Assembly (NCBI GenBank): GCA_003228955.1
Contig: QIGN01000113.1
Coordinates: 1 to 36,565 of the forward strand
Direction of reading: 5' to 3'
Length of the DNA: 36,565 nt
DNA from: Hyphomicrobiales bacterium
GTDB lineage: Bacteria > Pseudomonadota > Alphaproteobacteria > Rhizobiales > Methyloligellaceae
Every line of letters starts with the position of its first letter. Within the stretch, counting starts at the first letter, position 1. The notes beneath the pieces were generated by a model that worked only from the letters and a program-made list of their open reading frames with translations, did no database searches and was not told the DNA's origin. Shown one piece after another: positions 4,785 to 32,267 of the stretch. Made by a program: the position numbers and the translations under genes.

Positions 4785-4805
4785 GCGCCATCAGGGTGCC
4801 TTTTT
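4785..4805 (+). terminator. Weak intrinsic terminator after hspQ
   Basis: A five-pair stem (GCGCC 4785-4789 with GGTGC 4795-4799, one G-U pair) closes a five-base loop and is followed by CTTTTT. It begins 18 bases after the hspQ stop and overlaps the last codons of the convergent gene. The short stem makes it a modest terminator at best. Confidence 0.4.
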
Positions 4806-5516
4806 CGGCGCGGGCTGTCCTGCGCCTTGAGCGGCCCCTCCCTTCTTGACGGCTTCCGCGGCTCGTTTTGCAAGTTCGGCCTGGCGCGCGCGGATTTGCA
4901 TGAACATTTCCCTTCGCGCCTTGGTGTAGATTGCCTGGTCGACCGGAGGCCCATCATATGCGGTGGCGAAGCCCGTCAACGGAACCTTAAAGCCAATTCT
5001 CTTTTGAGAGACATCGATGGTCCCGATTGTGAGTTCGCGGCCTTTCTTAAGGGCTGTAACGATCGCCGGCATCGCGGGAACTTCGGCAACGCAACCCACG
5101 GCGGTGCAGTATGAATAGGGGACTCTGATCGCCTTCTCCTTATCCACCTTGATGAACATCCCTGGTGCGAGCAGCCGGCCCAGCGGCACCATGATCATCA
5201 TGGTTTCCTGCTTCTGTCCGCTGATGTTGCGAATCGCCGCGGAAATCAGGGGCTGCCCGGTGTCGGGATGAAACCGCTCGTGATGGACCAGACAGATGGT
5301 CACTTTTTTATCGCCTCTCTGTTTCTGGCACAGCTTTACCCAGGCACTGCCGACTGGTTTCTTGGCCGCCGCCGCAGCTGGTGCTTTTTTGGCGGGTTGC
5401 TGCTGAGCCTGAGCCGGGGGAACCAGAAAGAGCGCGCCAACCGCCAGACCCATGAACAGGCTTGAAATTACTGAGGCTGAGTCTACCCGGCGATTGGCCT
5501 TTTTGCAGGTCACCAT
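4791..5516 (-). CDS. Invasion-associated locus B (IalB)-family periplasmic protein
   Basis: The 241-residue precursor has a classical signal peptide: a basic start (KKANRR), a hydrophobic core at about 18-33 and an AQA cleavage site near residue 37. An Ala/Lys/Pro-rich linker follows, then the IalB domain at about 57-190. Its four cysteines (63, 75, 137, 142) and segments such as VTICLVHHERF, MIMVPLGRLLAPGM and the SYCTAVGCVAE pair are typical of the family. IalB was named for a Bartonella factor linked to erythrocyte invasion, but the family is widespread in free-living alphaproteobacteria and its biochemical role is not known, so the name should not be read as evidence of pathogenicity. The C-terminal tail (about 195-241) is an Arg/Lys/Ala-rich helix ending in a Pro/Lys segment. 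The gene is transcribed away from the YejA-like gene across a 270-base divergent region. Confidence 0.85.
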   Translation of the reverse strand: MVTCKKANRRVDSASVISSLFMGLAVGALFLVPPAQAQQQPAKKAPAAAAAKKPVGSAWVKLCQKQRGDKKVTICLVHHERFHPDTGQPLISAAIRNISGQKQETMMIMVPLGRLLAPGMFIKVDKEKAIRVPYSYCTAVGCVAEVPAMPAIVTALKKGRELTIGTIDVSQKRIGFKVPLTGFATAYDGPPVDQAIYTKARREMFMQIRARQAELAKRAAEAVKKGGAAQGAGQPAPKKAP

Positions 5517-5786: not shown

Positions 5787-7616
5787 ATGAAACAGCGCAC
5801 ATCCATCTATAACTGGGCTTTCATTTCCTTGAAAGCCTTTATGTCCGCGGCGGTTATTTTCGGTTTTTCCGGCGGCGCCCATGCGCAGCCGGCTCATGGA
5901 ATCGCCATGCATGGGTCCCTGGCGCATGAACCGGGCTTCGCCAGTTTCAGCTATGTGAACCCGGACGCGCCAAAGGGCGGAACAGTGTCTTTCGCCACGC
6001 TGGGCTCGTTCGACAGTCTCAACCCGCTGATCATCAAGGGTGCCGCCGCGGCCGGCCTGCGCGACCTTGTCTTCGAGAGCCTGATGGCGCGGGCATATGA
6101 TGAGCCCTTTTCGCTCTACGGTCTGCTTGCGGAAAATATCGAAACGCCCGAGGACAGAAGCTGGGTTGCTTTCGTCCTGCGCAAGGAGGCGCGTTTTTCT
6201 GACGGCAAACCGGTCACGGTCGAGGATGTGCTGTTTTCTTACAAGCTGCTACGCGACAAGGGCCGGCCCAATCACCGCACCTATTATTCAAAGATTACAG
6301 CCGCCGAGAAAACCGGACCCCGGACCGTGAAATTCACCTTCAACGCCGAAGGGGACCGGGAGATGCCGCTCATCATGGGACTGATGCCCATCCTGCCACG
6401 CCATTTTTTTTCCGCAGAGACCTTCGAGGAAACGACACTTAAACCGGTCATCGGCAGCGGCCCCTACCGGATCGGAAAAGTCGAGGCAGGCAAGCAGATT
6501 GTCTATGTCCGCAACCCGGACTATTGGGGCCGGAACCTGGCCGTCAATGCGGGACGGTTCAATTTCGATGAAATCCGGTTCGACTATTATCGCAATAGCG
6601 ACCCGATGTTTCAGGCCTTCCAGAAAGGACTATTTCAGCTCTGGCGCGAGTCGGATTCAGGGCGCTGGGCGCGCGGTTATGACTTTTCCGCCTACAAGGA
6701 TAAGCGAGTCCTCAAGGAGGAGTTGCCGGTCAGCATCCCTTCGGGCATGTCGGCACTGGTCTTCAACACCCGCCGTCCAGTCTTCGCCGATATTCGCGTG
6801 CGCCGTGCGCTGACGCTCATGCTGGATTTCGAATGGCTGAACAAAAACTATTATTTCGGCCTCTATACCCGGACGCAGAGCTTCTTCGACCGCTCGAATC
6901 TGTCTTCATATGGACGCGCGGCGGATGAGCGCGAACGCAAACTGCTGAAGCCGTTCGCAAACGCCGTAGATCCGGCAATTCTCGAGGGCACCTACAAGCA
7001 GCCCGTCAGCGACGGCGCAGGGCGCAACCGCGACAATCGCCGCAAGGCACTTCGCCTGCTCAAACAGGCCGGCTACACTCTCAGGGATGGCAAGCTGGTC
7101 GAGGAGAAATCCGGCGCGCCGTTCGCCTTCGAGATTCTGGCGGCCAGTAGTGCACAGCAGAGATTGCTTCTGAAATTCGTCGACGCACTCAAGGGCGTTG
7201 GCATTGCCGCGCGCCTGCGGCTGGTTGATTCGGCGCAGTTTCAACGCCGCCGCCAGACCTTCGATTTCGATATGATTCAGGCTTTCTGGTATGCATCGCT
7301 CTCGCCTGGAAACGAGCAGTTGTTCCGCTGGAGCACCAAGAGCGCGGATGCGCAAGGTTCGTTCAATTATGCCGGTGTCAAGAACCCGGCCGTGGACGCC
7401 ATGATCGCGGCTCTGCTGGCGGCCAGGAAGCGGGAAGAATTCGTCTCCGCGGTCAGGGCTCTCGACCGGGTGCTATTATCGGGCCACTATGCGATTCCCC
7501 TGTTCTACACGCGCAAGCAATGGGTTGCGAGATGGAAGACCCTCGCCCGTCCGAAAAAGACATCATTGTACGGGTATCGTGTGAATACTTGGTGGATCGA
7601 ACGCCCGGGCGGCTAG
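5787..7616 (+). CDS. ABC transporter periplasmic oligopeptide-binding protein, YejA type
   Basis: The product is 609 residues from ATG 5787, which is preceded by GGGGAG and opens a signal peptide ending in GGAHAQ; the frame extends 59 codons upstream without family features. It is a family 5 solute-binding protein (SBP_bac_5). The N-terminal lobe starts with HGSLAHEPGFASFSYVNPD and PKGGTVSFATLGSFDSLNP, and the C terminus ends with KQWVARWK and a NTWWIERPGG tail, as in the YejA/microcin C subgroup. Such proteins deliver peptides or peptide-nucleotide compounds to a YejBEF-type permease. No permease or ATPase gene is next to it, so this is an orphan binding protein that must work with a transporter encoded elsewhere. 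The following gene begins 28 bases after its stop, on the same strand, so a shared transcript is possible. The ligand is unknown. Confidence 0.85.
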   Translation: MKQRTSIYNWAFISLKAFMSAAVIFGFSGGAHAQPAHGIAMHGSLAHEPGFASFSYVNPDAPKGGTVSFATLGSFDSLNPLIIKGAAAAGLRDLVFESLMARAYDEPFSLYGLLAENIETPEDRSWVAFVLRKEARFSDGKPVTVEDVLFSYKLLRDKGRPNHRTYYSKITAAEKTGPRTVKFTFNAEGDREMPLIMGLMPILPRHFFSAETFEETTLKPVIGSGPYRIGKVEAGKQIVYVRNPDYWGRNLAVNAGRFNFDEIRFDYYRNSDPMFQAFQKGLFQLWRESDSGRWARGYDFSAYKDKRVLKEELPVSIPSGMSALVFNTRRPVFADIRVRRALTLMLDFEWLNKNYYFGLYTRTQSFFDRSNLSSYGRAADERERKLLKPFANAVDPAILEGTYKQPVSDGAGRNRDNRRKALRLLKQAGYTLRDGKLVEEKSGAPFAFEILAASSAQQRLLLKFVDALKGVGIAARLRLVDSAQFQRRRQTFDFDMIQAFWYASLSPGNEQLFRWSTKSADAQGSFNYAGVKNPAVDAMIAALLAARKREEFVSAVRALDRVLLSGHYAIPLFYTRKQWVARWKTLARPKKTSLYGYRVNTWWIERPGG

Positions 7617-7644: not shown

Positions 7645-9312
7645 ATGGATGATGAGGCCTCAGTCCGGATTGAGATTAAAGGCGGCGCTGCGCCGGATAT
7701 GACCAGCGCGGACGCCGCCTTGCGCCAACTTGCCGTGGATGCTGAAAACGAGGTCGCCTTCGTGGACTCACCCGACCGCGCCAAACGCGGCATGGGGCAA
7801 CCGCGCAGTCTTACATTTGCAAAAGCCAACATACTTGCTGACCAGATTGCCGTACGGTTTCTGCGCCGCGGTCTGAACACAGGCGACACAATTGCCCTGC
7901 AGATGCCAAATACGATTGAGGCGCCGCTCCTTATCCTGGGCGCCTGGCGCGCCGGGCTGACGGTCTGCCTCATGCCGCTCCTGTGGAGGTTTGATGAAAT
8001 CAATCGGGCCTTCTCCCGGCTAAAACCGAAAGCCGTGGTCACGGTTTCCCGCTATGGGGACGAAATGTCGGCCCGGACACTTGGCGAGGCCGCCGCCAAG
8101 AACCCAAGCGTTCGTTTTGTATTCGCCATTGGCGAGGACCTCCCCGATGGGGTGACACCGATTGACGACTGGATGAGCGAAGAGGGCGCGGAGGATCGCA
8201 AAACTGAATTGCTGCCGGAACCAGCGCCCCTGGACCAGACGGCCCTCATAACCTGGACCGTGCTACAGCAGGCTGCCTGCCCGGTGCCCCGCACCCACGG
8301 TGAAGTTGCCGCGCTGGCCAGAATGTTTTCCAGCCACATGAAATTGGGACCCGGCGGGAGGGTTCTCAACACCTACCCCTATTCCAGCATCGGCGCGGTG
8401 GCCGGCCAGCTGGTTGCGCCCCTCCTGGCGGGGGCACGGACCGTGCTGCACCTGCCATTCAGTTTTGATGTGTTTGTCCGGCAGTTGCAGGAAAATGAAA
8501 TCACCTATACCGCCCTGCCCGCGCCGGTCATCTCGGCCCTGGAAGAACGCTGCGATCTGGGATCATCTGCGCTGCCCCTCGCCCGCATCGGCTGTATCTG
8601 GCCAAATCCCCATGGCGTGGACTCCGGCCTCGACCTGTTTGAACCCCCGCTCCCCGTTTTTGACATCCACAATTTCGCCGAACTGGCGGTACTGGTCCGT
8701 GAAAGAAGCTCCGGCACCGATCCTTCGCTTCTGCCGCTTGGAAAAATTTATCTGCCGGGGGAAGAAGATACCGGGGACCCTGTTCTTGAAATGCGGGTCC
8801 GTGGCGCCGTCATCCATAAAGAAAGCCATCAAGTCTTGAAAGGAACGCTTTGCGTAAGCGGGCGCTCAGTGCCACCGGGCCCGTTACAACCAGCCGGAGC
8901 GCAGGACGGAACCGTAATAGAGGCCGATTCCCACGGCTTTCTCGACACCGGGATCGGCTGCGCCGTGGACGAATCCTTCGCTGGACAGTTCCGCTGCCAG
9001 AAGAGCGAGAATCTGATTTATCACGGCGGCGCGGTGATCGCGGCGAGTGAGCTCGACAAACTCTACGCGGAGTTTCCCGAGTTTCTGGATGCCGCGGCAT
9101 TCGTGCTGGACGATGCTGTCATCGGCGAACGTATCTTCGCCGCGGTGGTGCCAAAACCGGACATTGCGCCATCGCTCGACCGGCTCCGGGAGTTTTTGGA
9201 CCAAAAGAGAGTCGCTCCCTACAAGACACCCGATCAGCTGGTGATTGTGAAATCGATCCCCCGCAGCGGACAAGGAAAGGTGCAGCGCGACCAGATTCTG
9301 GCACATATCTAA
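7645..9312 (+). CDS. ANL-superfamily (acyl-CoA synthetase-like) protein with degenerate ATP site
   Basis: The 555-residue protein has the overall layout of acyl-CoA/aryl-CoA ligases: a large N domain (LTFAKANILADQIAVRFLRR at 56-75, QMPNTIEAPLLILGAWRAG at 86-104), a core domain, and a C-terminal lid with IPRSGQGKVQRDQ at 538-550 containing the usual catalytic Lys (K545). Key ATP-binding motifs are missing. Where YTSGTTGxPKG is expected, residues 201-219 read LITWTVLQQAACPVPRTHG, without the Ser/Thr/Gly loop or Lys. The YGxTE motif appears as FAELA, and the ribose-binding Asp of xTGD is replaced in GFLDTGI. It may have altered chemistry, bind acyl-AMP or CoA without ATP, or be a non-catalytic scaffold. 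The frame is intact and uniform, so this is not an obvious decaying pseudogene. It lies 28 bases after the YejA-like gene and 93 bases before the pseudo-PleD gene. Confidence 0.75.
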   Translation: MDDEASVRIEIKGGAAPDMTSADAALRQLAVDAENEVAFVDSPDRAKRGMGQPRSLTFAKANILADQIAVRFLRRGLNTGDTIALQMPNTIEAPLLILGAWRAGLTVCLMPLLWRFDEINRAFSRLKPKAVVTVSRYGDEMSARTLGEAAAKNPSVRFVFAIGEDLPDGVTPIDDWMSEEGAEDRKTELLPEPAPLDQTALITWTVLQQAACPVPRTHGEVAALARMFSSHMKLGPGGRVLNTYPYSSIGAVAGQLVAPLLAGARTVLHLPFSFDVFVRQLQENEITYTALPAPVISALEERCDLGSSALPLARIGCIWPNPHGVDSGLDLFEPPLPVFDIHNFAELAVLVRERSSGTDPSLLPLGKIYLPGEEDTGDPVLEMRVRGAVIHKESHQVLKGTLCVSGRSVPPGPLQPAGAQDGTVIEADSHGFLDTGIGCAVDESFAGQFRCQKSENLIYHGGAVIAASELDKLYAEFPEFLDAAAFVLDDAVIGERIFAAVVPKPDIAPSLDRLREFLDQKRVAPYKTPDQLVIVKSIPRSGQGKVQRDQILAHI

Positions 9313-9318
9313 AACGCC

Positions 9319-9337
9319 ATTTCATACTTTATGAAAT
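9319..9337. repeat. Perfect inverted repeat between the ANL-like and REC-REC-GGDEF genes
   Basis: ATTTCATA (9319-9326) and TATGAAAT (9330-9337) form a perfect 8-bp inverted repeat around a three-base centre, starting seven bases after the ANL gene's stop. AT-rich flanks and the absence of a T run make an intrinsic terminator unlikely; an operator for a dimeric regulator of the downstream gene is an alternative. The function is not established. Confidence 0.5.
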
Positions 9338-9405
9338 ATTAAACCAATCCGTCCGACACTCCTGCAAAGGGTAATTTCGCTTCGGACAGACGGGAATCCA
9401 GACTC

Positions 9406-10755
9406 ATGCATGGCCCAGCGCGCATCCTCATTGTCGGCAAGGACACAGGCAACGACAAGAAAATGGCGGATGCGCTTGCCGAAGGAGGCTTTGAATGCGC
9501 GATTGGCGATATTGCCCAGAGCGTCGCCGAGTTATGCGGATCGCGCAGACCAGACGTGGTCATCCTCAACATGCAGAGCGCACCGGCACTCAAGGCGCCG
9601 GAGACATTCCTGGCGCTCGGCAAAGCCCTCAAGGCCAGCGCCCTGTCCAGCCATCTGCGCATCATGCTGGTCGGCACCGACAAAAATATGGAACTTGCGG
9701 ACGCGGCGGCCGATATCGACGATCTTCTCATCGGGCCGGTAAATCCGGCGCAAATCTGCCACCGGCTCAGCTCGCTGGTGCGCCTGAATACCATGCATGA
9801 AGAGCATGTCCGGCGACTGAACACATCCGCCAAATACGGGCTCGACGCGCCGGCCGCCGTCGCCCCGCCGAGCCATGTAGACAATGCGACCGTACTTGTC
9901 CTCGGCGACCCGACACAATTTGCCATGATCGAGCATTCGCTGGCCAAACACGCCACACTCATCGGCGCCCTGAGCGAGGGGACCGCGCTCGATTATCTGA
10001 CCCGGCGAAATTTTGATGCCGTACTCATCAATGCAGCCGCCTCGGTCCAGCCTCATATCGATTTCGCCAAGGCGGTCCGCAGCCAATCACGGCTGTTCAA
10101 CCTGCCGATCGTCTTGCTGGCCGAACGAAACGAGTTGGAGAAATGCCCTCAGGTCTTTGAGTCGGACATCACCGACACGATCGCAAAGCCCTACTCCTGC
10201 GACGAGTTGAGGATTCGGATCAATCTATTGGTGCGGGAGTCCCGCTTCCGCGACTCACTCAAGAAGATATATCAACAGGCCAAACACCTTGCGACAAGTG
10301 ACGCACTGACAGGTCTCTACAGCCGGGGCTTTGCGCTTGAGCATATTACGACCATGGTAAGGGATGCAAAGAAGACCAGCCAGGGATTCTCCCTGGCGAA
10401 TCTCTCAATCGCGAATATGCCGGAAATCAATGAAACGCTGGGTTTTGCCTCCGGAGACCGGATTATCAGGCAGGTCGGCGAAGTGATCAGTTTGCTGATC
10501 CGGGGCGAGGACATGGCGGCCCGGTATTCCGGTACCGAGTTCATTCTCGCATTGCCCGACACGCCGGTGGAGCGCGCCCGGAAAGCCATCCTCAGAATCA
10601 ACGGCGTTGTCGCGCACACGGAATTCGCGGTGGAGGGGCATAACGCACCGGTCTTTGTGCGGCTGGAGACCCGCCTGGCAGGCTACCAGAAGGATGATAC
10701 CGCTGAGACTGTCGTCAAGCGAAGCCGCACCGTGGACCTCAAGGCCGCAGCCTGA
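9406..10755 (+). CDS. Degenerate PleD/PopA-like REC-REC-GGDEF protein with intact c-di-GMP I-site
   Basis: The 449-residue protein has two receiver-like domains (about 5-125 and 162-277) and a C-terminal GGDEF-like domain (about 296-440) after DALTGLYSRGFALEH, the layout of PleD and PopA. Both receivers lack the phospho-acceptor: the position normally occupied by Asp is Asn55 in VVILNM and Asn209 in AVLINA. REC1 also lacks the conserved Lys (GPVNP), whereas REC2 keeps KPYSCDEL. The GG(D/E)EF signature is SGTEF at 375-379, so diguanylate cyclase activity is unlikely. Yet the inhibitory-site motif RxxD is present as R366-G-E-D369, exactly five residues before the signature, as in active PleD. 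This points to a c-di-GMP-binding effector, comparable to Caulobacter PopA, which uses its I-site to bind c-di-GMP and recruits cell-cycle factors. Loss of both phosphorylation sites suggests signalling without a histidine kinase. Partners are unknown. Confidence 0.85.
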   Translation: MHGPARILIVGKDTGNDKKMADALAEGGFECAIGDIAQSVAELCGSRRPDVVILNMQSAPALKAPETFLALGKALKASALSSHLRIMLVGTDKNMELADAAADIDDLLIGPVNPAQICHRLSSLVRLNTMHEEHVRRLNTSAKYGLDAPAAVAPPSHVDNATVLVLGDPTQFAMIEHSLAKHATLIGALSEGTALDYLTRRNFDAVLINAAASVQPHIDFAKAVRSQSRLFNLPIVLLAERNELEKCPQVFESDITDTIAKPYSCDELRIRINLLVRESRFRDSLKKIYQQAKHLATSDALTGLYSRGFALEHITTMVRDAKKTSQGFSLANLSIANMPEINETLGFASGDRIIRQVGEVISLLIRGEDMAARYSGTEFILALPDTPVERARKAILRINGVVAHTEFAVEGHNAPVFVRLETRLAGYQKDDTAETVVKRSRTVDLKAAA

Positions 10756-19977: not shown

Positions 19978-21798
19978 CTATTCCACCGTAACCGATTTCG
20001 CCAGATTGCGGGGTTGATCCACATCGGTCCCCATGAACACTGCTGTATGGTAGGCGATCAACTGCATGGGGAGCGCATAAACAAGCGGTGCGGTAAAGGT
20101 ATGGACCGCGGGCAGCTTGATGGCGGTCATGATTTCGCACCCGGCCGCGCTTTCGCCGGCATCGCTTATGAACACAATCTGCCCGCCCCGCGCGGCGACT
20201 TCCTGCACATTGGAAACGGTCTTTTCGAAGATACCGTCGCGCGGCGCGACCACAACCACCGGCACCGCCTCGTCGATGAGCGCAATCGGCCCATGTTTCA
20301 ATTCGCCCGCCGCATAGCCTTCCGCGTGGATGTAGGAAATTTCCTTGAGTTTCAGCGCGCCCTCAAGCGCGACAGGATAATTCACACCGCGCCCGAGATA
20401 GAGTACATCCCGGGCCTTCGCCAGAGTGTGCGCAAGCGCATCATATGTGCCCGCCTCGCGCAGGATCGCGGACATATGACGCGGCACCTCGGAAAGCGCG
20501 CCGACGAGTTCAGCTTCCGTTTCCTCGCTGAGCGTTCCGCGCGCGCGCCCGGCCGCGATTGCAAGACAGGCGAGAACGGAAAGCTGGCACGTAAAGGCCT
20601 TGGTGGATGCGACACCGATCTCAGGCCCGGCGAGCGTGGGCAATACCAGATCGGAATCACGCGCGATCGAGGACTCCCGTACATTGACTATGGAAGCAAT
20701 ATTCTGGCCCTGCTCGCGGCAATAGCGCAGCGCCGCCAGGGTATCGGCCGTCTCCCCCGACTGCGAGATAAACAGCGCCAGGCCGCCTTGCTCCATGGGG
20801 ACTTCGCGGTAGCGGAATTCGGATGCCACATCGATTTCCACGGGCAGCCGAGCCAGTTTCTCAAACCAGTATTTGGCAATGAGACCGGCAATATACGCGG
20901 TCCCGCAGGCGGAAATTGAAATGCGGTTTAAGGACGTAAAATCTACAGGTAGATCAGGCATTTGCACGCGTGAATTCGCAAAATCAATGAAATTCGCCAG
21001 GGTGTGGCCAACCACTTCGGGCTGTTCATGGATTTCCTTGGCCATGAAGTGGCGATGATTGCCCTTGTCAACCATCAGCGCGGAGGCCACGGATTTCTGG
21101 ACGGGCCGCGCGACCGCCGCGCCTTCCCGGTCCCGGATTGCCACACCTTCCCGTGTTATTACTGCCCAGTCGCCATCTTCAAGGTAGGTAATGGTGCCGG
21201 TAAACGGGGCGAGCGCGATGGCGTCCGATCCCAGATACATCTCCCCGTCGCCAAACCCGACGGCCAGCGGGCTGCCCTGGCGCGCCGCGATCATGAGATT
21301 GTCATGCCCCTCGAAAATAAAGGCGACAGCGAAGGCGCCCTCCAGCCTGCGCAGCGTGTGCTGGACGGCAATAGCCGGATCATGACCCGCATCCATCTCG
21401 CGCGTCACCAGATGGGCGATCAACTCGGTGTCCGTATCGGTGGAGAGTTCGACGCCCGCGGATTTCAGCTCCGAACCCAGTTGCCTGAAATTCTCGATAA
21501 TGCCGTTGTGAACAACCGAGACGCGCTTCGTCATATGCGGGTGGGCATTGGTTTCAGTTGGCGCGCCATGGGTCGCCCAGCGCGTATGACCAATGCCAAT
21601 CCGCCCCGGAAGCGGCTCATTGGCGAGGCGGGCCTCAAGGTTTTCGAGCTTGCCTTCGGCACGGCGGCGATCCAGCTCACCATTCTCGACCGTGGCCACA
21701 CCAGCGGAGTCATAGCCGCGATACTCCAGCCGCTTGAGGGCATCAAGAATCTGGCCTGAAACCGGTTCCTTGCCCAGAATTCCGACTATTCCACACAT
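19978..21798 (-). CDS. glmS: Glutamine-fructose-6-phosphate aminotransferase (isomerizing)
   Basis: The 606-residue enzyme is full length. It starts MCGIVGILG, exposing Cys2 as the glutaminase nucleophile after Met removal. The N-terminal class II amidotransferase domain shows GIGHTRWATHGAPTETNAHP and VHNGIIENF. Two SIS isomerase domains follow, with SACGTAYIAGL, SQSGETADTLAAL and GRGVNYPVALEGALKLKEI. The C terminus has HAEGYAAGELKHGPIALI and ends DVDQPRNLAKSVTVE, as expected. It makes glucosamine-6-phosphate from fructose-6-phosphate and glutamine, the first step to UDP-GlcNAc for peptidoglycan and lipid A. It lies 93 bases downstream of glmU, so the two probably share a transcript. I see no glmS ribozyme-like leader. 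Confidence 0.98.
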   Translation of the reverse strand: MCGIVGILGKEPVSGQILDALKRLEYRGYDSAGVATVENGELDRRRAEGKLENLEARLANEPLPGRIGIGHTRWATHGAPTETNAHPHMTKRVSVVHNGIIENFRQLGSELKSAGVELSTDTDTELIAHLVTREMDAGHDPAIAVQHTLRRLEGAFAVAFIFEGHDNLMIAARQGSPLAVGFGDGEMYLGSDAIALAPFTGTITYLEDGDWAVITREGVAIRDREGAAVARPVQKSVASALMVDKGNHRHFMAKEIHEQPEVVGHTLANFIDFANSRVQMPDLPVDFTSLNRISISACGTAYIAGLIAKYWFEKLARLPVEIDVASEFRYREVPMEQGGLALFISQSGETADTLAALRYCREQGQNIASIVNVRESSIARDSDLVLPTLAGPEIGVASTKAFTCQLSVLACLAIAAGRARGTLSEETEAELVGALSEVPRHMSAILREAGTYDALAHTLAKARDVLYLGRGVNYPVALEGALKLKEISYIHAEGYAAGELKHGPIALIDEAVPVVVVAPRDGIFEKTVSNVQEVAARGGQIVFISDAGESAAGCEIMTAIKLPAVHTFTAPLVYALPMQLIAYHTAVFMGTDVDQPRNLAKSVTVE

Positions 21799-21891
21799 GC
21801 CAGTTTCAGTCCCTTGGCGGTTAGAAAATCATCAGTTGGAGCCTTCCGCCTACGTAGCGGCGTGGTTGGCGCCCGCGCAAATCAAGTGCTG

Positions 21892-23262
21892 TTACTTTTT
21901 GTTTCCCCTGGCTGCGGAGCCCATGCGCTCCCTGCGCACGCGCATTTTTGCCGCCCAGCCGTCGCGCTGGTCGAGCGGTCCGCGCGTCACCACCAGGGCG
22001 TCAGCAGGCACATTCTTTGAGATTACGCTTCCTGAACCAATGAACGCGCCCTCGCCGATTTTTACCGGCGCAATAAGTGCTGTATTCGACCCGACAAACA
22101 CGCCTTTGCCGATTTCCGTGCGGTGTTTTTGAAAACCGTCATAATTGCAGGTGATGGTTCCGGCGCCGAGATTGGCCTTCGCACCGACATGGGTGTCCCC
22201 CACATAAGCCAGATGGTTCGCCTTTGATCCCTCGTCCATGGTGGAGTTCTTCACCTCGACGAAATTTCCGATGCGGACTTCAGGACCCAGATTCGCACCG
22301 GGCCGCAGCCGGGCAAAGGGGCCAACGACCGCGCCCGCGCCTATTTGAGCGCCCTCAAGATGGGAAAAAGCCCTGATCCGCGCGCCGTCCCCAATACTGA
22401 CGCCTGGCCCGAACACAACATTCGGCTCGACAATGACATCACGCCCAAACTTCGTATCGCGGCACAAAAACACCGTTTCGGGTGCAACGAGAGTGGTCCC
22501 ATCCTCAAGCGCCCGCGCCCGCAGGCGCTTTTGCAGCTCAGCCTCCGCGGCGGCCAGTTGAACCTTCGAGTTCACGCCCATAACCTCCTCTTCGGCACAC
22601 AGGACAACAGCGGTCTTCAATCCCTCGCCGCACGCCAGTTCCACCGTGTCCGTGAGATAATATTCCTCATTGGCATTGTCATTACCGATTCTGTCCAGCA
22701 GCCCCAGCAGGTTTTCACCGCGAAACGCGAACACGCCGGAATTACACAGCGTCTCGGCGCGCTCTTCGGGGCTTGCATCTTTTTCCTCGCGCACCGCCAG
22801 CAAGGCTCCCGATGCATCGCTCATCAGCCTGCCATAGCCCGTCGGCTCCCCCGCTTCGAAACCAAGCACAGCCAGATCCGTACCGGTTTCCAGAAGCTCT
22901 AGCATCCGCGCGAGTGTTTTCGGGCGAATGAGCGGCGTATCGCCATAAAGAATAACCACATCGCCGTGAAACCCCTCAAGCGCCTCACGGGCCGCCAGCA
23001 CGGCATGGCCTGTCCCAAGCGGCCGGTCCTGAACAAACCCTCTTGCCGCGGGGAAGATCGAGCGGGCAACGCCCACAACCTCATCCATGCCGGGCGCCAC
23101 CACGACCGCCGCGTCCCGCAGGCCGCCCTGGCGTGCTGTCTCCAATACATGGGCCAGCATCGGTGTGCCTGCGATTTCGTGGAGAACCTTCGGCCGCGCC
23201 GATTTCATGCGGGCGCCCTGCCCGGCGGCCAGAACAAGTGCTAGTGAAGGTCGTTGACTCAT
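21892..23262 (-). CDS. glmU: Bifunctional GlmU (N-acetylglucosamine-1-phosphate uridyltransferase / glucosamine-1-phosphate acetyltransferase)
   Basis: From ATG 23262 the product is 456 residues; the frame continues 31 codons upstream without family similarity. The N-terminal pyrophosphorylase domain has the nucleotide-binding LAAGQGARMKSARPKVL (11-27) and YGDTPLI. The C-terminal left-handed beta helix shows hexapeptide repeats and the acetyltransferase signature (GNFVEVKNSTMDEGSKANH, LAYVGDTHVGAKANLGAGT, ITCNYDGFQKHRTEIG). It acetylates glucosamine-1-P and couples the product to UTP, giving UDP-GlcNAc. The C terminus is basic (KMRVRRERMGSAARGNKK). It is the first gene of the glmU-glmS row and diverges from the SPOR-like gene over 233 bases. 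Confidence 0.97.
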   Translation of the reverse strand: MSQRPSLALVLAAGQGARMKSARPKVLHEIAGTPMLAHVLETARQGGLRDAAVVVAPGMDEVVGVARSIFPAARGFVQDRPLGTGHAVLAAREALEGFHGDVVILYGDTPLIRPKTLARMLELLETGTDLAVLGFEAGEPTGYGRLMSDASGALLAVREEKDASPEERAETLCNSGVFAFRGENLLGLLDRIGNDNANEEYYLTDTVELACGEGLKTAVVLCAEEEVMGVNSKVQLAAAEAELQKRLRARALEDGTTLVAPETVFLCRDTKFGRDVIVEPNVVFGPGVSIGDGARIRAFSHLEGAQIGAGAVVGPFARLRPGANLGPEVRIGNFVEVKNSTMDEGSKANHLAYVGDTHVGAKANLGAGTITCNYDGFQKHRTEIGKGVFVGSNTALIAPVKIGEGAFIGSGSVISKNVPADALVVTRGPLDQRDGWAAKMRVRRERMGSAARGNKK

Positions 23263-23495
23263 GGCAGACCGATTGGTGCAGTTTGACTTGCGATGAACTG
23301 GGTGGAAAAAAACTAAGCAGGAATCATGCCGGACCCGATCATTCCCGCCGCGCAATCCTTATCGCAAACCTTGCGGGATGGAAATACACTCAGGTGAAAG
23401 GCGCGCCGGATTGACCGCCGGTCCAGACTCAGACAAGTTCACTCCCACGCTGATTCAGTAAAAAATGACCCGTTTCGAATGCACGGGGTTCGACC

Positions 23496-24306: not shown

Positions 24307-25223
24307 CTAACCGCCGAGGAACAGCCGGCCGACTTCCGGGTTTTTCAGCAATTTGTCGCCTTCACCCGCGATGGCCACTTCACCCGATACCAGCACATAG
24401 CCGATATCGGCGAATTCGAGCCCCTTCTTGGCGTTCTGCTCAACCATGATAATGGTCTTGCCCTCGCCATGCTGAAGGTCATGGAGAATCTCGAACACCA
24501 TATCGATGAAGCGCGGCTCAAGGCCGATGGAGGGCTCGTCCACAAGCAGGATTTCCGGCTCCATGACGAGGGCCCGCGAGATTTCCAGCAATCTGCGCTC
24601 CCCGCCCGACAGAACCTTGGCCTGATGCCTGCGGCGTTTCGCAAGGCGGGGGTATCTGTCGAACACACGTTCAGCGGCTGCTTTCGCCGCCACCGGCTTG
24701 TCCATCAAAAATCCGCCCATCCACAAATTCTCTTCCACCGTCATTGACGGAAAGACGGATTTGTCCTGAAGGATGTAGGCAATCCCGGCCTGTTTCAGTT
24801 TCGCATTCGGCGAAAGCCGTGTGATGTCCCGCCTGGCGCCATTGTCTCCGACGGTAATCTTACCGTCGAAAATATCGTTGAAGCCGAATATTGCATGAAG
24901 AATGGTCGACTTGCCCGCCCCGTTCGGCCCGATCAGGCACAAGGACTGCTTGTGACCAACCCTCAGATTCAGATTGTGCAGGATTTCCATCTTGCCGTAC
25001 CCGGCGCGAAGGTTGTCGATTTTGAGGGACGGCTCGCCCTTGACCAGAGCGTCGAGCTGCTTGACGGACACGTCCTGGGCAATGGATTCAATCTGGCGGG
25101 TGATCTCTTCCACCGAGATAACGGTGTCGACACCGCCGCCGCCATAGCCGCGCATTGACCTGCCCCCGGCGGTGTTCCTGGCCGGCGCCTTGCGCTTTTT
25201 CTTCTTTTTGCGCTCTGCCGCCA

Positions 25224-25227
<4 letters not shown>
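24307..25227 (-). CDS. livF: Branched-chain amino-acid-type ABC transporter ATPase LivF with N-terminal extension
   Basis: The ABC domain begins near residue 67 (LKIDNLRAGYGKMEILHNLN). It has Walker A GPNGAGKST (100-108), Q-loop YILQDKSVFP, signature LSGGE (206-210) and Walker B ILLVDEPSIGLEP, and ends with the LivF-type EVGRLFLGG. At 306 residues it is about 70 longer than the usual 235. The extra N-terminal part has a Lys-rich run (ERKKKKKRKAPAR), a Gly-rich spacer (GYGGGG) and a predicted helix (VEEITRQIESIAQDVSVKQL). The long start is supported by the 4-base ATGA overlap with livG, the same coupling used by the other liv genes. The extension's role is unknown; it could bind nucleic acid or acidic lipid, or regulate the ATPase. 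It is the last gene of the operon. Confidence 0.93.
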
Positions 25228-25963
<736 letters not shown>

Positions 25964-25967
<4 letters not shown>

Positions 25968-27076
25968 TGCGCGGGCCCCTTCGAGGGGGCCTTGGCCGGT
26001 GCGCGCGCGTCAACCTCAATGCCGAACCAGCCGGGATACTTCTCCTGGAGCCAGCCCACGATCCCCTGCTGAAAATAGATGATGTTGAGGATGATAATCG
26101 CGCCAAGCGTAACCCATTGCCAGCCAAGGAAATAGGTCCAGGTCGCTTCCTTCACGAAATGAAACAGGATCGCGCCCAGAACAGGGCCCCAGATTGTTCC
26201 CTTGCCGCCGAGAAGCGCCATCGCCACCATGAAGATGCCGAATGTGACGGTCGGGAAGGCCACTTCCAGCGGCTCGATAAACCCTGTCATATTACCGAAC
26301 AGGCCGCCGGCAATGCCGAGGAAGAAGGCGGAAACCGCCCATGCCACCGTCTTGTGACGCAAGGTATGTATCCCCATGGCTTGCGCCTTGTCCTCATCGT
26401 CGCGGATGGCATTGATTGCCAGGCCGAACCGCGTCGAATAAAGCCATTTAAGGAACATAAATGTGGCGATCGCGGCGACAAAGCACAGGACATAAAAGAA
26501 ATAGGATTTTCCATCGCCGCTGCCTGGGTAGACGGGCATCGGGATACCGCTGCCGCCGCCGACCCACCCCCATGCACCCACCAGTTCGCCCGCCGCGAGG
26601 GCCATCCCCAGCGTTCCAATGGCGAAATAGGGTCCGCGCAGGCCGAACACGATCCACCCCAGGGCCACCGCCAGCAGCGAGGAGCCAATGGCTGCGGCAA
26701 CCAGGCCCACGGCCACGCCAATGTAATATTGATCGGGTGTGAATCTGAAGTCGCCCTGACCGGAGACGGATGTGTACGCCCCCACGTCAGTGAACAAACC
26801 CACCTGGACAACGGCGCAGATATACATGCCCGCACCGAAGAAAAAGATGTTGCCGAGGGAATTGTAACCCATCTGGCCGCCCATGATGTCCCAGGTCAGC
26901 GCAAACAGAACCATGAGCCAAAGGACGGCGATCTGGAATGTATAGTTCGGGAACAGGATCGGGCCGAGAATACCGAACAGGACCAGGCCCGCGAATATGA
27001 AGCTGTCGTTGCGCGACATCAGCCGCCGTCTGCCCGTCCCGGCCTCCGTGGCATTATCGTCCGTCACTGCCGTCAT
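25964..27076 (-). CDS. livM: Branched-chain amino-acid-type ABC transporter permease LivM
   Basis: The 370-residue polytopic protein carries about nine or ten hydrophobic helices. Family markers include LTWDIMGGQMGYNSLGNIFFFGAG near the N terminus and the cytoplasmic EAA-like loop STRFGLAINAIRDDEDKAQAMG, followed by the MTGFIEPLEVAFPTVTFG and LLGGKGTIWGPVLGA segments. A hydrophilic N-terminal leader (about 1-24) precedes the first helix, and the C terminus is a short polar tail. It forms the heterodimeric permease with LivH. The usual substrates of the family are branched-chain amino acids, but amides, urea and aromatic acids are also known. Confidence 0.94.
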
Positions 27077-27981
27077 TGTACCGCCTGCCTTACCCGGTTC
27101 ATCTGAACCTGACGCCAGATCAGGACGAGCAGGAGCATGCCAACCACGGTCGCCTGCTGCAACTCGGCGCCAAGTATGAATCCGCCATATTGTTCAACCA
27201 CCCCAAGCCCGAGCGACGCCATGAGTACGCCCGCCAGATTTCCAAAACCCGCAGCCGTGACGATCACAAAGGAACGGATCGAGTGGGTGATTCCGTAGAA
27301 GGGCTGAATCACCCAGATCATTGAAATGAGAACACCCGCGGCGCCGCAAATCGCGGCGTTGAGCGCATAGGTGAAAGCGAAAACTTTTTCGGTGTCTATG
27401 CCCATGACCTTGGCCGCGCGCACGTCCTGCGAAGTTGCGCGAATGGCCTGCCCCATCCGGCTTTTCTTCATAAAGGCAACGACACCGCCTGCGAGAACGC
27501 AACAGATCAAAAAGGAATAAAATCTGATTGCAGCGACGGTGATCTCTCCGCCCCAAATCGGAATGGTGTGTGTCGGAAAGCCGGACTCCGCCACCTGGAC
27601 TTCGGGGCCAAAGGCCAGATTCAGACCCTGCTGGATTACGATCGCAAGACCGAAGGTGGCGAGAAGAGAAGTGAACATGTCCTTCTCGACAACTCGCGAG
27701 ATTATCGTTTTGTATACAACCCAGCCGAAACCGAACATCCCGATGACCGCAACGGGCAGAGCGTACATCGGATGGATGCCGTAGGTGCTCATGTACCAGG
27801 CAAAATATCCTCCCATGATGACAAATTCGCCCTGGGAAAGATTCTTGACGTTCATTACGCCCCACACCAGGGCGAGACCATATGCGGCCAGCGCAAATAT
27901 GGCGCCAATGAATATCCCGTCGAGCAGCAGCTGCACGCCCAGATAGGGTGCAATCACGAGCAGATTTAGATTGTCGAGCAT
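27073..27981 (-). CDS. livH: Branched-chain amino-acid-type ABC transporter permease LivH
   Basis: From ATG 27981, which has GGGGGAG eight bases upstream, the protein is 302 residues; the 9 codons further upstream are disregarded. It is a LivH-type permease with about eight membrane helices. The opening LLLDGIFIGAIFALAAYGLALVWGVMNV and LSQGEFVIMGGYFAWY are typical, as are the coupling-loop segment SRMGQAIRATSQDVRAAKVMG and the closing FGNLAGVLMASLGLGVVEQYGG. It is 93 bases downstream of livK, with a strong hairpin in between. Confidence 0.95.
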   Translation of the reverse strand: MLDNLNLLVIAPYLGVQLLLDGIFIGAIFALAAYGLALVWGVMNVKNLSQGEFVIMGGYFAWYMSTYGIHPMYALPVAVIGMFGFGWVVYKTIISRVVEKDMFTSLLATFGLAIVIQQGLNLAFGPEVQVAESGFPTHTIPIWGGEITVAAIRFYSFLICCVLAGGVVAFMKKSRMGQAIRATSQDVRAAKVMGIDTEKVFAFTYALNAAICGAAGVLISMIWVIQPFYGITHSIRSFVIVTAAGFGNLAGVLMASLGLGVVEQYGGFILGAELQQATVVGMLLLVLIWRQVQMNRVRQAVQ

Positions 27982-28005
27982 GACTGAACTCCCCCGAGGC
28001 CAGCA

Positions 28006-28053
28006 CAAAGAAAAAGAAACTCCGCCGCCCCCGCAAAAATGCCGGGACGGCGG
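28006..28053 (-). terminator. Hairpin and T-rich tract between livK and livH (partial terminator)
   Basis: On the minus strand, 28053-28041 pairs with 28034-28022 over 13 positions with two mismatches, closing a six-base ATTTTT loop; a T-rich tract (28021-28006) follows. It lies 22 bases after the livK stop and before the livH binding site. Such elements usually let most polymerase stop after the binding-protein gene, giving more LivK than permease, and protect the livK mRNA 3' end. The role is inferred. Confidence 0.65.
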
Positions 28054-30746: not shown

Positions 30747-32267
30747 TCAGTTTTCGGGGGGTTGAAAGACACTTGCGTAGAGGTCGCGCAATTCCTTTTT
30801 CTGAATCTTGCCCATAGCGTTCCGCGGCAGGGCGTCAACGAAGAACACATGCTTGGGCTGCTTGTAGCGCGCCAGAACACTGCCCAGCGGGGAGACAACA
30901 TCTTCCTCGGCGAGCGTGCCGTCAGGCTTACAGGCAACGACAGCAACGACTCCCTCGCCGAAATCAGGATGCGGCGCGCCGATCACGGCGGACTCCGCGA
31001 CACCTGCAATCGCGTCAATGGCGGCCTCGATTTCCGCCGGGTAGACATTGAATCCGCCGGATATAATCAAATCCTTGTCCCGGCCGACTATATTCACATA
31101 ACCCTGATCGTCGATCCTCCCCAGATCGCCGGTAATAAAGAACCCGTCTTCGCGAAACTCCTCGCGCGTTTTCTCCGGCATGCGCCAATAGCCAGAGAAT
31201 ACGTTCGGGCCGCGCACCTCTATGGAACCTATTTCGCCCTGTTCGAGCTCAATCCCCGTCTCTGGATCGGCGATATGAATTTCAACCCCCGGCAGGGGAA
31301 ATCCGACCGTTCCGGCCCGGCGCGCGCCGTCATAGGGATTGGATGTATTCATGCCGGTCTCCGTCATGCCATAGCGTTCGAGAATGGTATGGCCGGTGCG
31401 TTTCTCGAATTCACTGTGCACATCGGGGGAAAGCGGGGCGGACCCGGAGATAAACAGGCGGATATGCGCGAGCGTATCCTTTGTCAGCCGGTCGCATTGC
31501 AACAACCGGGAATAAAACGTCGGCACGCCCATCATGACGCTTGCGCGAGGTAACAGCCCGGCCACCTCTTCGGCATCGAATTTGGGCAGGAATATCATCG
31601 ACGCCCCGGCGGCAAGAACAGTGTTGGTCGCGGTGAACAGACCATGGGTGTGGTAGATCGGCAGCGCATGCAGCAAGCGGTCCTCGCGCGTGAACGCCCA
31701 GGTTTCAAATAGCGCCCTCGCGTTTGAAGTGAGATTTCCGTGGCTGAGCATTGCGCCCTTGGCGCGGCCTGTCGTACCCGAAGTGTAGAGGATCGCGGCC
31801 AGATCGCCGGCACCGCAGGCTGCATCTTCAATCTCTTCCGAAGCCATATCGGCCAGTGCGCCGAGGGTGCCGCCCACGCCGCCATCTCCAAGCGTCTCCA
31901 ACACCGCCGCGCCGCTGACGGCCCCGGTTTCACCTTCCGTCGCCGGCCGGCAAACAACCAGTGCAGGCTCCGCGTCGCCAAGAAAAAAGCCGAGCTCAGA
32001 TGGGGTATAGGCAGTGTTCAGCGGCAGATATGCGGCGCCGGAACGGATCGCGCCAAGATAAAGCATCAGACTCTCGATGCTTTTCCCGACCTGGACAGCA
32101 ACCCGGTCCCCAGGCTTCACACCTAGCCCAATCAGTGCATTGGCATATTGGGCACTGCGCAGAAGCATGTCCCCATAGGTGAAAATATCCCCGCCTCCTG
32201 TCTCGATAAGACAGCAGTCGGGGTCGGGAAAATTGTCTCTCAGGGCGGCAAAAAGATTCTCATTCAT
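30747..32267 (-). CDS. matB: Malonyl-CoA synthetase MatB
   Basis: From ATG 32267 the product is 506 residues. It is a complete ANL ligase: P-loop YTSGTTGRAKG (161-171), adenine-binding RYGMTETG (298-305), FFITGD and the GRDKDLIISGGFNVYP hinge region, and the catalytic C-terminal Lys487 in NAMGKIQK. The segment MTETGMNTSNPYDGARRAGT is, as I recall, characteristic of malonate-activating MatB enzymes. It makes malonyl-CoA from malonate, ATP and CoA. The start overlaps the mcd stop by eight bases, so the two are translationally coupled. The upstream frame to 32378 is mcd antisense-frame noise. Its intact ATP site contrasts with the degenerate ANL homologue at 7645-9312. Confidence 0.93.
   Translation of the reverse strand: MNENLFAALRDNFPDPDCCLIETGGGDIFTYGDMLLRSAQYANALIGLGVKPGDRVAVQVGKSIESLMLYLGAIRSGAAYLPLNTAYTPSELGFFLGDAEPALVVCRPATEGETGAVSGAAVLETLGDGGVGGTLGALADMASEEIEDAACGAGDLAAILYTSGTTGRAKGAMLSHGNLTSNARALFETWAFTREDRLLHALPIYHTHGLFTATNTVLAAGASMIFLPKFDAEEVAGLLPRASVMMGVPTFYSRLLQCDRLTKDTLAHIRLFISGSAPLSPDVHSEFEKRTGHTILERYGMTETGMNTSNPYDGARRAGTVGFPLPGVEIHIADPETGIELEQGEIGSIEVRGPNVFSGYWRMPEKTREEFREDGFFITGDLGRIDDQGYVNIVGRDKDLIISGGFNVYPAEIEAAIDAIAGVAESAVIGAPHPDFGEGVVAVVACKPDGTLAEEDVVSPLGSVLARYKQPKHVFFVDALPRNAMGKIQKKELRDLYASVFQPPEN

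Follow-up and report, generated by a model that had tools for sequence, protein, structure and literature searches.

Alignment, profile searches and structural modelling indicate that the window (the whole 36,565-nucleotide stretch of Hyphomicrobiales DNA analysed here) encodes an ANL-fold protein, psANL, which has a complete reading frame and has lost the residues of ATP chemistry. Judged from its aligned relatives, psANL is a member of a family of P-loop-less ANL proteins across the order and not a local accident. New beyond the initial annotation of this DNA is the link of psANL to an apparently YepA-type binding protein and to an intact second ANL gene, ANL2. We hold with medium confidence that psANL is an ATP-independent ANL pseudoenzyme and a partner of YepA-linked muropeptide recycling, a role that we infer. 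The features of the locus are listed below.

4791-5516, minus strand: IalB-domain protein, divergent from yepA, an arrangement seen in 56 of 61 loci
5787-7616, plus strand: SBP_bac_5 solute-binding protein of the periplasm, YejA family, putatively of YepA type; frame open from 5610, start probably at 5787
7645-9312, plus strand: psANL, predicted ANL-fold protein without a P-loop, 555 aa (Pfam, alignment, AlphaFold model, tree)
8257-8289, plus strand: P-loop position, residues 205-215, with Leu207, Cys212 and Pro213 in place of the canonical Gly, Lys and Gly (61-sequence alignment)
8953-8955, plus strand: Ile437, replacing the ribose-binding Asp of motif A7 (Asp frequency 0.00 in 61 sequences)
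9277-9279, plus strand: Lys545 at the A10 position, present in the window protein and unconserved (Lys in 4 of 61)
9313-9405, no strand: gap of 93 bases, the place of ANL2 in some relatives; a search of this genome found no ANL2
9406-10755, plus strand: PleD-like response regulator/GGDEF protein, the next gene and a variable neighbour (Pfam, NCBIfam, locus comparison)

The psANL frame starts with ATG and runs uninterrupted through 555 codons and a stop. Both ANL domains scored above the Pfam cut-off, the N-domain weakly (PF00501, 80.5 bits over residues 35-299, where the MatB protein of the window reaches 286) and the C-domain with 34.8 bits over residues 469-545 (PF13193). With NCBIfam, the best 25 of the 69 matching models were all far below cut-off, the top one at 97 bits against a required 736. 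An AlphaFold2 model built on a 45-row alignment had a mean pLDDT of 89.2 and a pTM of 0.91, and VIA-align superposed it on CahJ (5wm4) with a Z score of 36.8 and an rmsd of 2.9 over 493 residues. The top structure match was the N-terminal domain of FACL13 (Z 37.0), and the nearest solved structures were acyl or aryl-acid adenylating enzymes, including CahJ, which also ranked first by sequence (5wm2, 176 bits, E 9e-51). The predicted protein is thus like the aryl-acid and acyl adenylating enzymes CahJ (5wm2), DhbE (1md9) and EntE in its full fold and both domains, but unlike them it has no P-loop, no ribose Asp and no conserved A10 Lys. The complete 555-codon ANL-fold frame described in the initial annotation is therefore borne out by Pfam, AlphaFold2 and VIA-align. 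The same can be said of the intact MatB gene offered there as an internal comparison (30747-32267, minus strand), whose product passed the malonyl-CoA synthase model NF005702 with 776.8 bits (cut-off 558).

The canonical ANL P-loop has the motif [ST]SG[ST]TGxPKG. In the alignment, TSGTTGRAKG of MatB pairs with TVLQQAACP of psANL, and the P-loop is missing from all 61 aligned psANL proteins, with the canonical Gly at 213 in none and the Lys at 212 in three; in the AlphaFold2 model, the secondary structure in its place is a short hairpin. The canonical TGD of motif A7 reads TGI in psANL, where Ile437 stands for the Asp, and this Asp is likewise lost in 61 of 61. The reported absence of both the P-loop and the ribose-binding Asp is consequently confirmed and extends to every sequence aligned. 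The fate of Lys545, which had been cited as a kept catalytic-type residue, is different. The window protein has it, but of the other 60 sequences in the set only L091, L095 and L110 do, and the closest relative (sister L004/L034, 83% identity) has Ala instead, so the argument from a kept Lys carries no weight. The 57 sequences without it include L087-L090 and L119, from which the stretch is absent, and L104, which is seemingly out of frame there; L021, which lies outside the 61, also has a Lys at this position. The four proteins L087-L090, which lack the C-terminal A10 stretch, are psANL of one family (f35).

Conservation was tested on the 17 columns that are invariant across 19 canonical and ANL2 sequences, taking the weighted frequency of each residue in the psANL set. 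The catalytic columns are mostly lost, with frequencies of 0.22, 0.07 and 0.00 for the Gly, Lys and Gly of the P-loop, 0.00 for both the A5 Gly and the A7 Asp, 0.24 for the A8 Arg and 0.05 for the A10 Lys. Invariant columns retained in psANL are Gly76 (0.91), Gly104 (0.86), Gly462 (0.74) and Pro529 (0.90), and Asp340 (0.93) and Ala150 (0.95) are newly conserved in the family. Pro292 alone reaches a frequency of 1.00 in the wide psANL set, so these data do not pin down a binding site.

The window protein was matched at 1e-20 in 38 of 61 genomes of relatives, and a 27-row psANL profile matched 186 of 397 genomes of the order at 1e-60 (G269 and G326 being low scorers at ~1e-61), with the P-loop status read in 61 loci. 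Besides the window, these loci comprise 20 found among the relatives and 40 from the order search, the latter picked among the higher-scoring matches listed and spread over families and genera; gene calling in them relied on a simple script that chose start codons heuristically and gave open psANL frames of 457-600 aa. Of 387 genomes sampled across the class, five matched: that of the window, another from the order and three from outside it. Spread across the class was rejected, as all three matches from outside the order carry P-loops. A search of genome contigs for related loci returned one locus only, and a plasmid search returned two Cupriavidus matches over residues 26-299, of which the one read was canonical.

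In the tree, the 61 psANL proteins form one clade with a FastTree support of 0.842, and its sister is the canonical pair L127 and L129 (joint node 1.0). The class I adenylate-forming proteins L127, L129 and Cupriavidus WP_150984745.1 (L160, from the plasmid search and outside the tree) all have a PR[ST]HN stretch after the P-loop and adjoin a nitronate monooxygenase gene; unlike psANL, they have a P-loop (with PKA for PKG in L160) and the A10 Lys. Derivation of psANL from ANL2 was rejected on the basis of 15-21% identity and a separate tree position; the ANL2 rows of the tree do not include L105, which its contig end truncates. Sequencing error or local decay was rejected, since the loss is common to all 61 aligned sequences. 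Both the profile search and the phylogeny recommended in the initial annotation thus place the P-loop-less homologues in a conserved clade, and close homologues with a normal P-loop were looked for and found nowhere among the 61.

In four pairs psANL is under purifying selection, with dN/dS values of 0.233, 0.137, 0.161 and 0.134. The highest belongs to the pair of the window protein and L034 and exceeds the values for six of seven neighbouring genes (0.082-0.201), the seventh being IalB at 0.265; an excess of rate in the window lineage was not significant (29 vs 18 changes, chi2 2.57). These values, together with the P-loop-less clade, support the earlier view of a repurposed family member rather than a case of local decay. 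Relaxed selection throughout the clade was unseen in the four pairs, but some relatives have a frameshifted or interrupted gene or none. The psANL matches are split between different frames in three genomes (G013, G019, G025), one internal stop is present in three more (G156, G180, G218), and G003, of the same genus, has only a C-terminal piece with one stop. Frameshifts are probable in L021 (G018), whose first ~85 residues do not align, and in L104 (G216), which is seemingly out of frame past motif A5, and inspection of the locus in G016 found no psANL beside yepA. Given these broken or missing copies in relatives, some of which may be assembly errors, psANL is dispensable.

An SBP_bac_5 gene lies upstream of psANL on the same strand in 60 of the 61 loci, the exception being L120, with no such match. 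With heuristic starts, the gap between the two genes is -131 to 157 bases in 57 loci, 263 and 268 bases in two, and 590 bases in L099, where an internal stop interrupts the binding-protein frame. The window's binding protein has 34% identity to E. coli YejA. Since yejB of this genome lies on another contig (C52) alongside two YejA-type genes, the window's protein is an orphan, unlinked to yejBEF. We take the structure 4ony to be a Brucella protein and 3pam to be one from Bartonella henselae. The window protein matched 4ony better than S. meliloti YejA, 7z8e (634 vs 506 bits), and the order was reversed for the genome's own YejA2 (466 vs 648) and YejA1 (438 vs 480); 3pam gave 247 bits with the window protein and 187 and 167 with the two YejA proteins. 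The identity of 7z8e is taken from PMC10128002, and Bartonella henselae is said to possess YepA only (PMC9790009). As a caveat on the YepA assignment, Methylocystis MbnE (5icq) also scored high against the window protein, at 600.

Binding proteins from 21 of the loci served to train a YepA profile. With it, 59 of the 60 psANL neighbours (38 of 39 held out from training) scored above 800 bits, compared with 636-650 for the YejA proteins of this genome; the one exception, L099 (genome G288), gives 899 bits when read through its one stop. In these comparisons the neighbour of psANL is distinct in sequence from YejA, and they suggest that it is of YepA type. At 1e-215 the profile matched 336 of 397 genomes of the order, including 178 of 186 genomes with psANL vs 158 of 211 without it (Fisher p 3e-9, uncorrected for kinship). 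Since 158 of these 336 genomes lack a psANL match at 1e-60, YepA can manage without psANL. In Agrobacterium tumefaciens, YepA together with YejBEF imports muropeptides and is required for wall integrity, and bacteria deprived of this route reportedly have a weaker cell wall and tolerate beta-lactams less well (PMC9790009). The window's binding protein is likewise a YejA-family orphan, apparently of YepA type, in a genome that encodes YejB and two YejA-type proteins elsewhere, and its kinship to the Agrobacterium protein suggests, by analogy only, that it would bind muropeptides. The accessible part of PMC9790009 mentions no ANL protein, and the accessible portions of the open-access literature found on YejA, YepA and YejBEF name no ANL partner.

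An IalB-domain gene is divergent from yepA and within 1.5 kb upstream of it in 56 of the 61 loci, so conservation may extend to a three-gene unit, with the IalB-domain gene as a candidate third member. The wider gene order around the locus (UbiH, HpcH, YccV-like, IalB, Mfd, RecG) is conserved too. On the other side of psANL, a second ANL gene with a P-loop, ANL2, lies downstream in 13 of the 61 loci; A7, A8 and A10 are present as well in the 12 ANL2 proteins that do not run off a contig. ANL2 is nearest to benzoate-CoA ligases yet under the cut-off of that family (270 bits vs 375). ANL2 was looked for in the window's genome and not found, and there the next gene follows psANL after 93 bases. 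A non-random draw of 18 yepA loci from genomes without a psANL match contained eight with ANL2 directly behind yepA and ten with no ANL match. Taken with the counts above, the yepA locus holds psANL, ANL2, both or neither. The eight loci with an intact ANL2 directly behind yepA are L142-L146, L150, L156 and L158.

Sequence comparison and the predicted structure show that psANL descends from a canonical acyl- or aryl-acid adenylating enzyme, without the ATP-chemistry residues but with the fold retained. Its gene forms a tight pair with yepA, in which it comes second. From its alignment and model, it is predicted to be without catalytic activity. The YepA-type protein would catch muropeptides for the YejBEF importer, and psANL would most likely serve this route in the cytoplasm as an ATP-independent partner with a binding or regulatory task, which might sense or hold a ligand in its old acyl site and then act on the importer, on ANL2 where a locus has both, or on a downstream recycling step. 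More specifically, psANL might be a ligand-sensing pseudoenzyme in the cytoplasm that gates or couples YejBEF-YepA uptake and, with ANL2 present, teams up with it as a pseudoenzyme-enzyme pair to modify a cell-wall product after import. This extended proposal is doubtful; if true, it would add to peptidoglycan recycling an arm that has gone unrecognised. Candidate partners for the muropeptide route through YejBEF-YepA, itself a recent discovery, would be psANL and, as a second one, ANL2. psANL would also constitute an order-wide family of ANL-fold pseudoenzymes, of which no report was found in the open-access literature.

A possible, though not a probable, reading is that psANL is a true pseudoenzyme whose tie to muropeptides is incidental. 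It would share an operon with yepA for expression and have a different task, such as sensing acyl or aryl acids, a capacity passed down from a catabolic ancestor. The nitronate monooxygenase genes beside the canonical sisters (L127, L129) and L160 do indicate a catabolic setting, and with the wider gene order itself conserved, the adjacency to yepA could be passively inherited. Against this, yepA and psANL stay paired in seven loci where Mfd, UbiH, HpcH and the YccV-like gene were not found in the stretch (L099-L103, L113, L114), and nearly all psANL carriers have YepA, at the frequency given above.

It is unlikely that psANL is still an enzyme with altered chemistry, be it another phosphate donor, a CoA or thioester reaction that needs no ATP, or a different mode of ATP binding. 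The A5 acidic residue (Glu or Asp) is retained in 51 of 61 proteins and the A8 Gly-Gly mostly so (48 and 45 of 61), which makes some remaining chemistry possible, and the C-terminal PR..G..R pattern is mostly retained as well (R 55, G 50 and R 52 of 61). However, the P-loop, ribose Asp, A8 Arg and A10 Lys are mostly or wholly lost, and the whole A10 stretch is missing in L087-L090. Slow decay of a former enzyme carried along by the yepA operon appears very unlikely. The broken or missing copies in ten genomes (two of them probable, and some maybe assembly errors) and the comparatively high dN/dS of the pair with L034 would fit such decay, but all four dN/dS values are far below 1, open frames of 457-600 aa were called in the 61 loci, Asp340 and Ala150 are newly conserved, and the rate excess in the window lineage is not significant. 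A pseudoenzyme tied to YepA-linked recycling is the reading that we prefer.

Elsewhere in the window, ~11-14 kb beyond psANL, a GlmS-like gene (SIS and glutamine amidotransferase domains) and a GlmU-like gene (nucleotidyltransferase and hexapeptide) occupy 19981-23355 on the minus strand. GlmS and GlmU are makers of the cell-wall precursor UDP-GlcNAc. Genes for an ABC transporter of the branched-chain amino-acid type, with two ATPases and two permeases, are found at 24310-28008 on the same strand.
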